A stretch of 64,000 bases of DNA from Deltaproteobacteria bacterium (lineage in GTDB: Bacteria; Desulfobacterota; Dissulfuribacteria; Dissulfuribacterales; DYLC01): positions 124,001 through 188,000 of the forward strand of contig JAQVIJ010000003.1 in assembly GCA_028695735.1 (NCBI GenBank), given 5' to 3'. The notes below the pieces were generated by a model that did no database searches, was not told where the DNA came from, and was given only the letters and a program-made list of their open reading frames with translations. This document shows, piece by piece, positions 4,580 to 58,132 of the stretch (position 1 is the first letter of the stretch; each line of letters begins with the position of its first letter). The position numbers were made by a program, and so were the translations under genes.

Positions 4580-5748
4580 GGAGATTGTAGCAGCATATCA
4601 AGGGCCAGTCGCGCTGTCTGCATCGCAGCCCCCTCCTGTCCTTGTCCACCCACTTTCAGTTGTGACACTACCTCATTCAGGCCGTTCAGCATGTCCTGAC
4701 GTCTTTTTTTGTCCTTCAACAGAAACAGGCCGGCCTCGCTCAGCCTTTCAGGCGTTGCCTCATGCTGCAAAAACTCCGGCACTATCTCCCTGTCCGCTAT
4801 CAGATTTACGAGGGACATGAATTTTACATGCACTATTCGTCTTGCTAATTGATAGGTCATGCCGGAAACCCTGTAGGCTACCAGCATCGGAATCCTCAAA
4901 ATGGCGGCCTCCAGGGTCACTGTGCCGGATGCCAGAAGCAGGAGGCTGGACGCAGCCATTGCATCATAGGCCTGCCTCTCAACTATGCTGATCTCCGGAA
5001 TGCGAGGGTTTGCCTGTCTCTCCCTTGCAATACATTCCTCGACCCATGTGCGGGAAAGGCTCGGCGCCACGGGCAGAACAAACTGGCATTTTGGCAGGTC
5101 ATGCTGAATCAGGGCCGCTGTCTGTAAAAAAATAGGCAGCATACGCTGCACCTCGCCCCTTCTACTGCCTGGGAGTATGCCGACGATATCCCTGCCGGGT
5201 ACGAGACCAGCCGACTCACAGAACGCCTCACGGGACATGGATGGCCTGACCACATCCAGCAGAGGATGACCTACAAAATGGGCATTCAGGCCGTTGGAAC
5301 GAAAAAAATCCTCCTCAAACGGCAGAATAACGGCCAATTTATCGATAAGTCGCCGCATCTTTTTGATTCTTCCCCTGCGCCAGGCCCAGACCTGGGGGCT
5401 GATATAATAAAACACCGGAATGCCCAGATGCCTGGCATAACGCGCCATGAAGAGGTTCAGGCCCGGGTAATCTATGAGCACCAGCAGGTTCGGGCGTTCC
5501 TGTTTCAAGGCGTGCATGGCCTGTCTGACTGCCTTTAGGATGGGCCTGACATGCGACATGATCTCGAACAGGCCCACAACAGCCAGCTCATTGTTCAAAA
5601 ATACCGGATGCAACCCTGCCTCCACCATTTGAGACCCGCCTATGCCCAAAAACTCCACCTCAGGCCGCAGTGATTTCATGGCCCGCATCAGCCCGGCTCC
5701 ATGCAGGTCACCGGATGCCTCGCCTGCTATGATGAAGACCTTTTTCAT
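4576..5748 (-). CDS. lpxB: Lipid-A-disaccharide synthase
   Basis: GT19 glycosyltransferase that joins UDP-2,3-diacylglucosamine and lipid X to form the lipid A disaccharide at the inner membrane. The start KKVFIIAGEASGDLHGA and the segments GIGGSQM, YYISPQVWAWRRGRI and GHPLLD are diagnostic, and 390 aa is the usual length. Its start overlaps the upstream yggU gene by 4 bp, making it the last gene of an aroC-tyrA-yggU-lpxB transcription unit. Its presence shows that the cell makes lipid A. Confidence 0.96.
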   Translation of the reverse strand: MKKVFIIAGEASGDLHGAGLMRAMKSLRPEVEFLGIGGSQMVEAGLHPVFLNNELAVVGLFEIMSHVRPILKAVRQAMHALKQERPNLLVLIDYPGLNLFMARYARHLGIPVFYYISPQVWAWRRGRIKKMRRLIDKLAVILPFEEDFFRSNGLNAHFVGHPLLDVVRPSMSREAFCESAGLVPGRDIVGILPGSRRGEVQRMLPIFLQTAALIQHDLPKCQFVLPVAPSLSRTWVEECIARERQANPRIPEISIVERQAYDAMAASSLLLLASGTVTLEAAILRIPMLVAYRVSGMTYQLARRIVHVKFMSLVNLIADREIVPEFLQHEATPERLSEAGLFLLKDKKRRQDMLNGLNEVVSQLKVGGQGQEGAAMQTARLALDMLLQSP

Positions 5749-6050
5749 AAGGCAGCCGACAGCCGTGTGGCCGCCTCATCAACAGTCAGCCCACGCAGCA
5801 AAAAGATCTTGGTTCTGGCGGAGGCGCCGGACAGAAGCTGGACGGATTTCATGGGTAGAGAGAAAAAATCTGCTAGAAAACGCTGACATGCCTCGTTTGC
5901 AGCGCCTTCCACCGGTGGGGCGTGTATTTTCAGACGTATCGAATCCTCGAAAACACCGGCAAAACCGGAACGGGAGGAACGCGGCTGAACCCTCAATCGA
6001 ATGGTCACGCCGTCTCTTGATTCATGCAGGAAAGACAATACGCTGCTCAC
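5745..6050 (-). CDS. DUF167/YggU-family protein
   Basis: Small protein (101 aa) of the DUF167 (YggU/UPF0235) family. The family pattern is visible: RLRVQPRSSRSGFAG at the N-terminus, then LKIHAPPVEGAANEACQRFLA and LLSGASARTKIFLLRGL. The biochemical role is not established; structures of homologues are known but no activity is assigned. It overlaps tyrA by 4 bp upstream and lpxB by 4 bp downstream, so it is translationally coupled to both. Confidence 0.9.
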   Translation of the reverse strand: MSSVLSFLHESRDGVTIRLRVQPRSSRSGFAGVFEDSIRLKIHAPPVEGAANEACQRFLADFFSLPMKSVQLLSGASARTKIFLLRGLTVDEAATRLSAAL

Positions 6051-6868
6051 AGGGTCTGTTTTCCCACGGTATCCATATAGGTCTTGCCTGCGGCCTGTGC
6101 GCTTCGAAACAATTCCACAAAGGCATCTCTGTCAGTTCTAAGGACGGCCTCATGCAGTTTGTCGCAGACCCCAAGGAAGTTATGCAGGACATTTGCCGCA
6201 AAGGGATTTGCCATCTGAATTGTGGCATAGAGCTGTGGATCCTGATAAAAGAGCCTTGCCACAATCTCCATCTGTTTTGAAAAACTCGGGGTGGAGAGGA
6301 ATACCAGTTCTTCCATGTCCAAACCCTGATCAAAGACCGCCTTTCCAAGGCTGATGAGAATGAAGTGGTTCAAGGCCTGTACCCAGGCCATGGCGCGATC
6401 ATGGGAGGCGGCGTCCGTGCAGTGTACGCAAGCGCCTCTGGACTCCAGGAGCGACCTCCACCACTCAAACCATTCATTTCCGCGGCCGGGGCACAGGGCC
6501 ACGCGCCTTCCATTTATGGAATCCTCGGCAGGCCCGAAAAGGGGATGGGAACCAGCTACGGAGCAGACCGTGTTCTGAAGCATCTCCTGCACTTGCACGG
6601 CCTTTAGGGAGCAGAGGTCCGTCAAAAAGGCATCTTTCGGCATCAACGGCCCTATCCGGCCGATTACCGATGAAAACGCCTCCATGGGCACGGAGACGAT
6701 CACCACATGGCAGCGTCGGGCCAGGTCTTCGGAGGAGAGCTCAGTGCCCATGTCAGAGACCAGGACTTGATAACCGGCATCGGTCAAAAATCTGAAAAAC
6801 CAGTTTCCCATGCGGCCTTTGCCGCCCACTATACCGATCAGTATGTCTCTTTTGCAGACGGCATTCAT
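6047..6868 (-). CDS. tyrA: Prephenate dehydrogenase family (tyrosine biosynthesis)
   Basis: NAD(P)-dependent enzyme converting prephenate (or arogenate) toward tyrosine. There is an N-terminal nucleotide-binding [14 protein letters not shown], the substrate-site segment SHPLFGP and a helical C-terminal dimer domain. No chorismate mutase domain is fused and no C-terminal ACT domain is seen. The open frame begins at 6931 inside aroC, but the ATG at 6868 overlaps the aroC stop codon as ATGA and starts just before the nucleotide-binding motif, so it was chosen (273 aa). The adjacency to aroC puts consecutive aromatic-pathway steps in one operon. Prephenate versus arogenate preference cannot be read here. 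Confidence 0.88.
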
Positions 6869-53964: not shown

Positions 53965-54542
53965 AATCATACAAGGCATGGATCTCAGGGTTGTATGCCG
54001 TTGTCTGGCTCTGGTCTGCCGTGGACCCGTTCAGCCGTAGCGACTGGTTGCTGGAGAACCTGCTGGTGTTTCTGGGGCTGCCCGTGGTCTTTTTTCTGGA
54101 TAGAAGATACGACCTCTCTCCCATTTCCTTTGCAGCAGTCTTTCTGTTTTTGGCCCTTCATTCCACAGGAGCGCACTACACCTATGCGGAAATGCCCGTC
54201 TTTCATCTGCTTTCCCAATGGTTTGGCCTGGGACGCAATCACTACGACCGTGTGGTGCACTTCCTGTTCGGGTTTCTGCTGTTTAAGCCCATATTCGAAT
54301 GTTTTCATAAGTCCGGCAATTCCCGTTCCATGGCAGGTTTTGTGACACTGTGCCTTCTGGTCTCCCTTTCTTCCCTTTACGAGATACTGGAGTGGCTGGT
54401 TGTGGAACTGGTCTATCCTGATCTCGGGGCGCAGTTCCTGGGCATTCAGGGCGATGAGTGGGATGCCCAGAAGGACCATGCCCTTGGGGTCTTGGGGGCG
54501 CTTATCGCCTATGGGATGAACAGACCCTTTATGAAAAAATAG
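53961..54542 (+). CDS. DUF2238/YjdF-like membrane protein
   Basis: 193-aa inner-membrane protein with five or six hydrophobic helices. The signature NHYDRVVHFLFGFLLFKP and the later SSLYEILEWLV and GDEWDAQKDHALGVLGALIAY match the YjdF/DUF2238 family. Role unknown. The GTG at 53961 has GGAG seven bases upstream and overlaps the previous stop; an in-frame ATG at 53940 is less likely. Confidence 0.82.
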   Translation: MKSYKAWISGLYAVVWLWSAVDPFSRSDWLLENLLVFLGLPVVFFLDRRYDLSPISFAAVFLFLALHSTGAHYTYAEMPVFHLLSQWFGLGRNHYDRVVHFLFGFLLFKPIFECFHKSGNSRSMAGFVTLCLLVSLSSLYEILEWLVVELVYPDLGAQFLGIQGDEWDAQKDHALGVLGALIAYGMNRPFMKK

Positions 54543-54563
54543 CCAATAATTCAAACAACCATG

Positions 54564-54687
54564 GCGAGGGGGCTACAGATATTGCACGCTTGCTCCTTTG
54601 TTTTTGCTTGACAGTGAGGGAATTTTATGATTTTTGATAAAAAAGCCTGTAAGGCAGGTAATAAATAATGTTAGTCTGCCCCTTGCA
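54564..54687. repeat. Left boundary of the restriction-modification island: outer and inner direct repeats
   Basis: GCGAGGGGGCTACAG (54564-54578), followed by ATATT, is repeated with a one-base gap at 56687-56700. AAGGCAGG and the following GTTAG and CCTTGC (54651-54687) are repeated as AAGGCAGG...GTTAG...CCTTGC at 56469-56505. Both pairs frame the two restriction-modification genes in nested fashion. DNA between here and 54754 is AT-rich and otherwise without a gene. Confidence 0.55.
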
Positions 54688-54754
54688 TAACGTGGTCATT
54701 TTTTATGGTTATTGGATTATATAGGGTAGAATCTCAATCGGAGAAAATAACACT

Positions 54755-55681
54755 ATGACCACTGAAAACGCTGAAATTACTTTACCTCGTTCTATAAGCG
54801 AAGCAACCGAATATTATCGGGCAAAAATTGCCATAGGTACAAATCGCACTTGTTCGTGCAAACCCAATAGCCTAAATTGCTTAAGCGGTAAAGAGTGGCT
54901 TAAGAGTCAAATTGGTGTTTGGCAATTTTTCTATGAAGGCAGAGATATTCGAGACAAGAAATTACATCCTGCTACTTTTCCAATTTCTTTAGCCAAAAAG
55001 GTAATTAGCGTTTTTACACACGAAGGTGAATTAGTTCTTGACCCTTTTGTAGGAAGTGGCACTTCACTCGTAGCCGCTCAAGACCTAAATCGAAACGCTG
55101 TAGGGTTTGACTTGCAGGAAAAGTATATCGAGTTATGTGTTAAGCGATTGGCAGGCAATAACTTATTTAATCAGGCACAACAAGTTGCTATACAAGATGA
55201 TGCTTTGCATATTCCAAATTATTTAGAACCGGGTTCGGTCAGTCTAATATGGACTTCCCCGCCTTACGCTAATTTATTGAATCGGAAGCGCAAAAATAAA
55301 TCTAGGCGAGACAGAAATAATGAGCAACTCCATAAAGTAGAACAATACTCCCAAGATCCAAGAGATTTAGGAACTATGGCTTTGGATGAATATACATCTG
55401 CGATGGGTGATATTTTCGAGAAGTTATTACCATTGCTTCGCCCAAAAGGTCATTGTGTAATTAATGTCCCTGATATGTGGTGGAAAAATGAACGTATTAC
55501 AATTCATGTTTCCCTGATAAACGAATTGCGCAAACGTGGTTATGAACTCCGAAATACGATTATTTGGGATAGGACTAATATAGTGAATAATATTGGCATT
55601 TTTGGATACCCCAGCAACTACATCACAATGGGTACAACTTTTGAATATCTGCTCGATTTCTGGAGACCCCCTGAAGCATGA
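54755..55681 (+). CDS. Type II DNA methyltransferase, probably N4-cytosine
   Basis: 308-aa site-specific methyltransferase (N6_N4_Mtase family). The AdoMet motif LDPFVGSGTSLVAA (about residue 95) precedes the catalytic TSPPYANLL (about residue 167); this motif order fits the gamma-type arrangement. TSPPY is typical of N4-cytosine enzymes, while adenine enzymes usually have DPPY. It overlaps the next gene, an MvaI/BcnI-like nuclease, by 4 bp. The codon use is clearly AT-richer than the flanks, suggesting horizontal transfer. It should protect the host site, likely CCNGG-like by analogy; this is inference. Confidence 0.9.
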   Translation: MTTENAEITLPRSISEATEYYRAKIAIGTNRTCSCKPNSLNCLSGKEWLKSQIGVWQFFYEGRDIRDKKLHPATFPISLAKKVISVFTHEGELVLDPFVGSGTSLVAAQDLNRNAVGFDLQEKYIELCVKRLAGNNLFNQAQQVAIQDDALHIPNYLEPGSVSLIWTSPPYANLLNRKRKNKSRRDRNNEQLHKVEQYSQDPRDLGTMALDEYTSAMGDIFEKLLPLLRPKGHCVINVPDMWWKNERITIHVSLINELRKRGYELRNTIIWDRTNIVNNIGIFGYPSNYITMGTTFEYLLDFWRPPEA

Positions 55682-56463
55682 AAACCTACACCAAAGAGTC
55701 GTTGATTGCCGCGTTGAAAGATATAAAAAATCGTGGATGGATTCCTAATGCCCGCCCGGGAAATGTTGGTGGCATCGGAAACACGTTGGAAGACCTTCTT
55801 GGTATTCAGGAAAACAATCTACCAATTCCAAATGCCGCTGAATGGGAATTAAAATGTCAGAGAGCAGAAACAGCCTCATTAACAACTTTATTTCACATGG
55901 AACCTTCCCCACGAGCCTTGAAATTTGTGCCGAATATTCTTTTACCGAAGTATGGATGGAAACACGAACTTGCTGGCATAAGATATCCCGACAACGAGAT
56001 GAGTTTTCGCCAAACAATACACGGTCTTGAAAGAAGTGACCGGGGTTTTATGGTAGAAATTGACAAGGGCAATCGAAAAGTTTTGATTTCCTTTGACTCA
56101 AGCAAAGTAGATTCCCGCCATGCAGATTGGTTAGAGTCGGTCAAAAATCGTGTTGGCTTAGGTGAATTGAATCCACAACCGTACTGGGGATTTGATGACT
56201 TAAATCACAAGGCAGGTACAAAACTGCTGAACACCTTCTATGTTCAAGCAGAAGTTATGAAAGATGGCGAAAAGGAATTTTTTCATTACAATCGTATCTT
56301 GATACTAAAGGGGTTCAGCGTTGACAATTTTGTCAAAGCACTGATTGAAGGAAATGTGCTTGTAGATTTTGACGCTCGAACCGGTCACAATCACGGCACA
56401 AAATTTAGATTACGACAAAATGCTCGACCAAAGTTGTATTCTAATATTCAAGAAGTTGTGTAA
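55678..56463 (+). CDS. MvaI/BcnI-family type II restriction endonuclease
   Basis: 261-aa endonuclease. GWIPNARPGNVGGIGNTLEDLLG near the N-terminus, the catalytic EWELK (about residues 54-58, the E-x-K of the PD-ExK core) and the late HNHGTKFRLR match the MvaI/BcnI family, which cleaves CCWGG or CCSGG as a monomer. Its recognition sequence cannot be read from here. It is AT-rich like its methyltransferase and overlaps it as ATGA. It is followed by the hairpin GGCTAACG/CGTTAGCC. Confidence 0.9.
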   Translation: MKTYTKESLIAALKDIKNRGWIPNARPGNVGGIGNTLEDLLGIQENNLPIPNAAEWELKCQRAETASLTTLFHMEPSPRALKFVPNILLPKYGWKHELAGIRYPDNEMSFRQTIHGLERSDRGFMVEIDKGNRKVLISFDSSKVDSRHADWLESVKNRVGLGELNPQPYWGFDDLNHKAGTKLLNTFYVQAEVMKDGEKEFFHYNRILILKGFSVDNFVKALIEGNVLVDFDARTGHNHGTKFRLRQNARPKLYSNIQEVV

Positions 56464-56818
56464 GGTAAAAGGCAGGCTAACGCAAACCGTTAGCCCCTTC
56501 CTTGCTATCATAGTCGTATAATTGGGAAATCTCTTGAGGCTTATTTGCCCAGAGAGGGTAACATCGGTACCCCCTTGGGCGAAACGTTTTATTGAAGTGC
56601 TCAAAGGGAAAACGGGTTGCTGAACTGAATAATCTTTCAAGACTCCCTGCACGATTTGTCTGATTTTAAGATTTGCGTTGCCTGGAGCGAGGGGGTACAG
56701 GAAGAGAGATATTTTTTACTGTTGTCTTTTTACGGAACAGTCATTATTGTAATAAGAAACAGGATGTTTTTAACGCCTTTCTATCTCGTCTTTCCGCATT
56801 TCTGTTTCGGAGGGCCCT
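56464..56818. other. Right boundary of the restriction-modification island, without a gene
   Basis: 355 bp without a supported gene. It contains the inner direct repeat (56469-56505) with the embedded perfect 8-bp stem GGCTAACG/CGTTAGCC, a larger imperfect hairpin GCCCA...GGGTA...TACCC...TGGGC (56547-56580), a variant of the dispersed motif (AATCTTTCAAGACTCCC, 56631-56647), the outer direct repeat (56687-56700) and a strong GGAGGGCCCT ribosome site before the radical SAM gene. The promoter for that gene should lie in the last 120 bp. Confidence 0.6.
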
Positions 56819-58132
56819 ATGAAAGAAGCCGAGTCCACCCGCCGTTTCTTCTTGAAATCCCTTGCTGCATCCCTTTGTGTCACCTCCTTTGCCGGTTCCG
56901 AACTGCTTGAAGAGCTGTTTGCCGCAATGGCAGGCAGGACATCCCTTGAAAATGGCATAAACGCCGCCTTGAACGCCTTTTGCCTCTCCTCGGCAAACGC
57001 CGCCTCCATAGATGAGGTTCTGATGGACGCCCCTGAAGCCAGATACTGGGTTTACTCGAATCAGGAAGGGGTGGATTGCGGCCTTTGTCACGATGCCGCT
57101 GACGAGGGCATTCAGGCAGTGAAAGCCGGTGGTCACAACCACAAGACACCCGTAATCCGCTGTCAGCTCTGTCCTCACATGTGTGTGATAGAGGAAGGAA
57201 AACGGGGCAGATGCAGGACTCGAATGCATGTGAAAGGCAGTCTTAAAAGCCTGGTATATGGAAGGCCTGTGGCCATTCACACAGACCCAGTGGAGAAGAA
57301 ACCCTTGTTTCACTTCCTGCCTGGCGCCTATGCCTATTCCATGGGCACATCCGGATGCGTTCTGAAGTGCCGCTTCTGTCAGAACTGGGAGATATCCCAG
57401 ATGTCGCCCGAGGACTTTAATGTAGGGCGCATTCAGGCTGTTGCGCCCGTGAACGCCGCTTCGGCAGAAAAGGCGCCGATTATCGCCTTCACCTATAACG
57501 AGCCCACCACATGGACGGAATTCATGCTGGATGTCGTGCCCCTGGCCCACGAAAAGGGCATAAAATGTGTGATGATCAGTTGCGGATTTATAAATCCTGC
57601 GCCTTTGAAGGACCTGGCGCAGGTCATGGACGCCATCAAGATCGACCTCAAGGGCTTCAGCGAGAATTTCTATCAGAATGTCACCAGTTCCTCCCTCAAG
57701 CCTGTGCTGGAGAGCATAAAGATTGTCTCCGGACAGGTGAGGCAGGGCAGGTGCCACCTCGAGATCGTAAATCTGGTGGTGCCCACATTAAATGACTCCC
57801 AATCCATGCTGGGGAACCTGTCTTCCTGGGTATATGATGAGACAGGGCCGGATACCCCGCTGCATTTCACCAAATTTCATCCGGATTATCAGCTGATGAA
57901 TCTGCCTTCCACGCCGGTGGCGACGCTGGAGAAGGCCAGGGACACGGCCATGAAGACGGGAATGCGCTATGTCTATGTGGGCAATGTGCCGGGGCACCCA
58001 GGTGCTCACACCCATTGCCCCGCGTGTGGAAAGGTGGTTCTGGAGCGGAACAGCCTCTTCCTGCTGGCCAATCACCTGAAGGACGGCAAATGCGGGTTCT
58101 GTGGAGAACCGGTTCGGGGGGTCTGGGCATGA
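56819..58132 (+). CDS. amrS: AmmeMemoRadiSam system radical SAM enzyme with Tat signal
   Basis: Radical SAM protein of 437 aa. The [4Fe-4S]-SAM motif is GCVLKCRFCQNW (about residues 179-188). Upstream is the family cysteine segment CQLCPHMCVIEEGKRGRC, and the C-terminus has a zinc-ribbon pair (CPACGK, CGFCGE). Remarkably the N-terminus is a canonical twin-arginine signal, S-T-RRFFLK with a hydrophobic stretch after it, so the protein may fold with its cluster in the cytoplasm and then be exported. The following Memo-AMMECR1 fusion is coupled by ATGA. Reaction and substrate are unknown for this family. Confidence 0.9.
   Translation: MKEAESTRRFFLKSLAASLCVTSFAGSELLEELFAAMAGRTSLENGINAALNAFCLSSANAASIDEVLMDAPEARYWVYSNQEGVDCGLCHDAADEGIQAVKAGGHNHKTPVIRCQLCPHMCVIEEGKRGRCRTRMHVKGSLKSLVYGRPVAIHTDPVEKKPLFHFLPGAYAYSMGTSGCVLKCRFCQNWEISQMSPEDFNVGRIQAVAPVNAASAEKAPIIAFTYNEPTTWTEFMLDVVPLAHEKGIKCVMISCGFINPAPLKDLAQVMDAIKIDLKGFSENFYQNVTSSSLKPVLESIKIVSGQVRQGRCHLEIVNLVVPTLNDSQSMLGNLSSWVYDETGPDTPLHFTKFHPDYQLMNLPSTPVATLEKARDTAMKTGMRYVYVGNVPGHPGAHTHCPACGKVVLERNSLFLLANHLKDGKCGFCGEPVRGVWA

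Follow-up and report, generated by a model that had tools for sequence, protein, structure and literature searches.

A restriction-modification (R-M) gene pair lies, in the 64,000-nucleotide stretch of DNA analysed here (the window), between two genes earlier named yjdF and amrS, the first for a DUF2238 membrane protein and the second for a radical SAM protein, and the repeats on either side raise the question of how the pair came to be there. The original prediction had framed the island with two nested pairs of imperfect direct repeats, an outer and an inner one, and had seen in these the possible ends of an insertion.

The R-M island and the repeats around it

The island consists of two overlapping genes:

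54755..55681 (+), DNA methyltransferase of the N6_N4_Mtase family with a TSPPY motif in its translation (Pfam PF01555, E 1.8e-28)
55678..56463 (+), restriction endonuclease of the MvaI/BcnI family (Pfam PF15515, E 1.1e-63; R.MvaI, 2oa9, E 1.2e-16)

By Pfam and PDB sequence searches the pair thus has the arrangement of an MvaI/BcnI type II R-M system, a nuclease of the family adjoining a methylase. Such systems cut CCWGG or CCSGG; counts of these sites were uninformative as to their avoidance. No transposase or integrase was found among the ORFs of the surrounding window, as had been stated. Within the 60 genomes searched, the family is represented by only one more, which belongs to another genus (AmrS identity 59%) and is too distant for a nucleotide comparison of the junction.

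The outer repeats are:

54564..54578 (+), left copy, GCGAGGGGGCTACAG, its pattern at two places only in the assembly
56687..56700 (+), right copy, GCGAGGGGGTACAG, likewise

The letters of both copies were confirmed at these positions, and a search of all 2,222,912 bases of the assembly for the pattern GCGAGGGGG(C)TACAG gave no places other than 54564 and 56687. The copies differ by one indel. Their score was matched by 127 of 2000 dinucleotide shuffles of both whole intergenic gaps, and by 20 of 5000 mononucleotide shuffles of only the flanks outside the dispersed repeat and cassette described below. The pair is modestly beyond chance, which is suggestive and not strong.

The letters of the inner pair are likewise present, but as an approximate direct repeat it was rejected: the best local alignment holds 11 matches with one gap (AAGGCAGG-TAA), and 1580 of 2000 shuffles score at least as high. 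The inner pair does straddle an island with defined ends, as had been proposed, the left one being a dispersed repeat and the right one homologous to the 3' cassette end of a relative. Instead of a direct repeat or target duplication, these ends are an attI-like site on the left and a truncated attC-like site on the right, and they look like the product of site-specific recombination.

A dispersed attI-like repeat at the left end

Two features define the left end:

54591..54670 (+), dispersed repeat of attI-like character that contains a TTGACA box and whose last base is the G of the GTT core (shown by alignment, by model R1 and by eight more matches within this genome)
54670..54676 (+), left core GTTAGTC at the common end of the repeat, with a candidate crossover at 54670/54671; homology to the relative L123 runs from here to the start codon

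The left member of the inner pair is the last part of this repeat, which is about 80 bp long and stops at GTT. A DNA search of the bacterium's own genome with 54500-56800 gave the eight further matches, all within 54595-54675. The sequence-only model R1 returned nine copies in this genome at E 9.3e-11 or better, eight of which are its own training rows, while the ninth is broken before the core. All eight intact copies end at one GTT point, a fixed joining point as in an attI; beyond it the copies are unrelated, except for two similar ones on C7, and no shared right half was seen. TTGACA or TTGACG is present in all eight full copies, with GATAAT 15-16 nt away in four. In the window copy the second promoter box is poorer, and the output of a simple promoter scan did not include the box of this copy. 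The copies form two sequence types, with GATAAT after TTGACA or without it, the window copy being of the second type.

The left core GTTAGTC fits GTT and does not fit RRRY in full (the cassette start consensus being TTRRRY behind the G). The core of the repeat, AATAAATAATGTTAG, resembles the published attI2 core, AATAAAATGTTRRRY, given in passages of PMC12901181. Since no intI stands beside any copy in the assembly, the repeat is called attI-like only. Matches to tRNA, tmRNA or a known RNA family were sought at the repeats and none was obtained. Longer, REP-like repeats with GGACAGTCACATTC-like ends are also scattered in the genome (L009:3200-8320 on C7, L012:4770-6600 on C8 and L010:1-1000 on C2) and partly overlap three C7 attI-like copies.

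Outside this genome, model R1 gave seven weak matches (E 5e-5 to 0.01) in seven of 59 other genomes; among the five inspected only the one in L085 was at all similar. It lies at L085:1501-1541 (G002, of the same order), just upstream of an ordinary gene, matches the middle and end of the repeat at E 0.01, and may be due to chance or be a distant relative. A pattern scan found the repeat nowhere in the GTDB220 collection, viral contigs and plasmids, sets that may lack the records of this genome or of very close ones.

An ORF of at least 95 aa stands within about 215 nt after six of the eight copies with an intact end, and the cargo behind the repeats comprises DUF488, DUF4136, a BrnT toxin, a four-helix-bundle protein and a T5orf172/TPR protein. 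These segments were compared with a cassette rule, by which the first seven letters are complementary to a terminal core near the last stop; an attC carried by the cassette itself enforces this pairing of its two ends. The rule is exact in four of the eight intact copies (C7:3799, C2:2133, C8:29750 and C8:189022), where the exact reverse complement lies at most 25 nt from the stop ending the cassette ORFs and occurs once in 3.5 kb. At C2:51781 there is a single exact 7-mer match, which falls within the ORF, and the two C7 minus-strand copies have no exact 7-mer match. The window cassette agrees in six of the seven letters. On both sides of a 100-N gap at C2:51781 there is a duplicated segment (L011:3666-4528 and 5447-6221), which is probably a scaffolding artefact.

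According to the attC model R2, a full attC follows three of the four rule-obeying copies; these three are among its training rows. R2 places four full attC sites in this genome, each at a different locus, and on C2 a second, truncated attC was seen by eye after the first. The fourth full site, C9:13583-13654, is not a training row and ends a cassette of two small ORFs, by reading a putative HicBA-like pair. This cassette (L119:991-1572) immediately follows an ordinary gene, has no attI-like repeat ahead of it, and looks like an off-target insertion. The cassette end at C8:189022 is short, as in the window. A second shortened attC-like end, on C8 (L013:6291-6312, GCATAAC-8 nt-GTTAT), abuts the end of hemA, and the attC stems of this genome may be undergoing decay. 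A home-made attC scanner gave 27 hits in control loci totalling 97 kb and was dropped as too noisy.

The right end and the relatives of the island

The right end, and the segment that the two ends would delimit, are:

56474..56495 (+), truncated attC-like site with a candidate crossover at 56489/56490, aligning to the last 21 nt of the site in L123
54671..56489 (+), putative integron-type gene cassette with the R-M operon, both ends matching L123; GC 39.7%, against 51.7% in the remainder of the window

The right site contains the hairpin GGCTAAC-7 nt-GTTAGCC at 56475-56495 (fold z -3.98). It is the best but weak match of model R2 in 56400-56900 (7.3 bits) and, compared with an attC with R'', L'', L' and R', it is a remnant of about 21 nt only. 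L123, from an Anaerolineaceae genome, is the closest among the relatives found (nuclease 88% identical). Its alignment to the window extends from 54661 to 56463, with 79.5% DNA identity; at the left end 70 of 89 columns are identical from the GTT core to the start codon, as against 47 of 90 to the left of the core. Its 3' site has attC-like cores and extends over 130 nt, from AGACAAC to GTTAGCA; model R2 did not report it. The window sequence AGGCTAACGCAAACCGTTAGC aligns to the last 21 nt of this site with a score of 30, which was reached in none of 10000 shuffles and in none of 2801 pieces of the other 79 loci. The right site stands 10 nt after the stop codon in the window and about 120 nt after it in L123, and therefore about 110 nt appear, from the two sequences, to be missing by loss from the attC of the window cassette. 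Because the alignment to L123 puts the letters of the six-of-seven core match in L', and not in R'', this match may have arisen otherwise than by descent.

No integron integrase over the TIGR02249 cut-off was found in the assembly of this bacterium (97.2% complete, nine contigs), which leaves room for a missed gene; such an integrase was found in 77 of the 198 genomes searched, a set that includes this one. Lacking an intI in its genome as assembled, the locus is not a complete integron. The repeats had been proposed as a route for precise loss of the island, and this is unlikely today because no integron integrase was found and the right site is short of most of its attC.

The nuclease is present in 12 of 395 genomes of the phylum, this one included, and six relatives were read in their genomic context (G396, G328, G249, G067, G133 and G181). 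In G396 the methylase-nuclease pair forms a complete cassette with attC, and in G328 the nuclease comes with a different methylase and occupies the first cassette position next to an integron integrase, which scored 374.6 bits against a cut-off of 265; the attC of G328 was recognized by model R2 at E 7e-4 and was not in its training. G249 has an attC-like 3' end with no matching start and was not counted as a cassette, and in G067, G133 and G181 there was no matching start and no cassette was seen.

Among 80 named relatives, kept from 385 confirmed, model R2 found an attC in L132, L134 and L142, whose hosts are Desulfobacteraceae, Desulfobacterales and Syntrophaceae. L142 (Syntrophaceae UBA4767) is evidently G396, and its two attC sites are thus training rows of R2. 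The 7-mer rule gave an exact pair at four loci of the 80 relatives, against two in the control; from this rule only L132 and L142, both of which also have a model attC, were counted. The whole 5,940-base contig of L134 (JASEIZ010000138.1) is a perfect inverted self-duplicate, an assembly artefact, and its left end was for that reason unused. The genomes of L132, L134 and L124 have an integron integrase that passes the cut-off; none was found in those of L123 and L125. Homologous genes accordingly stand as true cassettes in G396/L142, G328, L132 and L134. The closest relatives of the nuclease are those of Anaerolineae (82-88%), mostly outside recognisable cassettes.

Origin of the island and comparison with known systems

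The R-M pair is probably a two-gene integron-type cassette (54671-56489) which was inserted by an integrase at the attI-like repeat and is now fixed. A cassette circle would have been recombined by an integron integrase between its attC and the GTT core ending the repeat 54591-54670, and the cassette-free junction would accordingly read ...AATAATG joined to TTAGCCCC. The promoter-like box of the repeat copy points into the R-M cassette, and we infer that the repeat acted as attI and may drive expression of the genes. With the integrase absent from the present assembly and the cassette attC short by about 110 nt, the cassette would since have become fixed; this order of events is likewise deduced. 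The reading gains support because the repeat family has a common end at GTT, because the cassette rule is exact in four of eight copies with a full attC after three of the four, because L123 shows DNA homology at both ends while relatives of the R-M genes occur as cassettes, and because the core resembles that of attI2. It is weakened by the missing integrase and by a right site which, at 7.3 bits, is not a recognisable attC, as well as by the three of eight intact copies that break the rule (C2:51781 and two on C7). It is further weakened since model R2 missed L123 and the closest Anaerolineae relatives are mostly not in cassettes, and since nine attI copies in one genome are unusual; the attI of G328, the sole one checked elsewhere, is single.

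In a related explanation an integrase did insert the cassette, but the repeat is an unrelated dispersed, promoter-bearing element that served as a repeated attG-like target. The absence of an integrase from the assembly, the nine copies and the C9:13583-13654 cassette, which follows an ordinary gene without a repeat, would all fit, and attG insertion is described in passages of PMC12901181. A pre-existing repeat should, however, leave some empty copies that run through the joining point, whereas each of the eight intact copies ends at one and the same GTT, with no shared right half seen, and the core resembles attI2; this explanation is the less likely of the two. An origin of the outer pair (54564, 56687) as a 14-15 bp target-site duplication around repeat, cassette and about 200 bp is improbable. 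Its uniqueness in the assembly and the few flank shuffles that reach it are in favour, but the copies differ by one indel, whole-gap shuffles reach the pair in 127 of 2000 cases, nothing comparable flanks the sibling unit at C8:189022 (its best pair is equalled in 126 of 1000 shuffles), and the window holds no transposase around the island. That the R-M genes arrived by homologous or illegitimate recombination and landed beside the repeat, with coincidental similarities at the ends, is less probable still. The nearest relatives, in Anaerolineae, do lie mostly outside recognisable cassettes, but the homology to L123 spans GTT core to GTT core and includes a strong right-end match, and elsewhere in the genome, too, cassettes stand behind the repeat.

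A wider and tentative possibility is a distributed integron, with nine scattered promoter-bearing attI copies, an integrase acting in trans (lost or external) and cassettes frozen by loss of attC stems. Each attI copy would then be a separate landing and expression site for cassettes. New in such a system would be an attI-like site in nine places, giving scattered, separately promoted cassette genes and not one array, and it would show by what route cassettes pass out of an integron to become ordinary genes of the chromosome, and how cassettes without an integrase can arise. Exact ends have also been obtained for the transfer of an R-M system whose nearest relatives are in Anaerolineae. R-M systems were reportedly found in pseudomonad super-integrons by Vaisvila et al. 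in 2001. Passages of PMC8618304 already mention, in a general way, that cassettes can carry restriction functions. No description of many attI copies in one integrase-less genome was found in titles and abstract openings and in passages of PMC12901181, PMC8618304, PMC11023631 and PMC12707154.

Among known systems, the island nuclease belongs by Pfam and PDB sequence search to the same family as R.MvaI and R.BcnI of type II R-M systems, but it is distant in sequence. Insertion of cassettes into genomes at attG sites (Loot et al. 2024, as cited in passages of PMC12901181 and PMC11023631) likewise gives single cassettes in chromosomal sites, whereas the target here is a repeated element with a fixed end. 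In common with the attI of class 1 and 2 integrons, as treated in passages of PMC12901181, the repeat has an AT-rich run before a GTTRRRY-like core, a putative insertion point at G/TT and a promoter-like box nearby; unlike them it is present in nine copies and not beside an integrase gene. A CALIN is a cluster of attC sites lacking an integrase (passages of PMC8618304), and this genome also has attC-bearing cassettes without an integrase, although these are dispersed over different loci as single cassettes or pairs, most of them behind copies of the attI-like repeat. Finally, the island differs from an integron gene cassette in its attC of only about 21 nt and in the lack of an integrase in the assembly, and what is claimed is a decayed cassette; it resembles one in its GTT-core ends, its low-GC mobile cargo, its terminal attC-like remnant and the occurrence of related genes in true cassettes.
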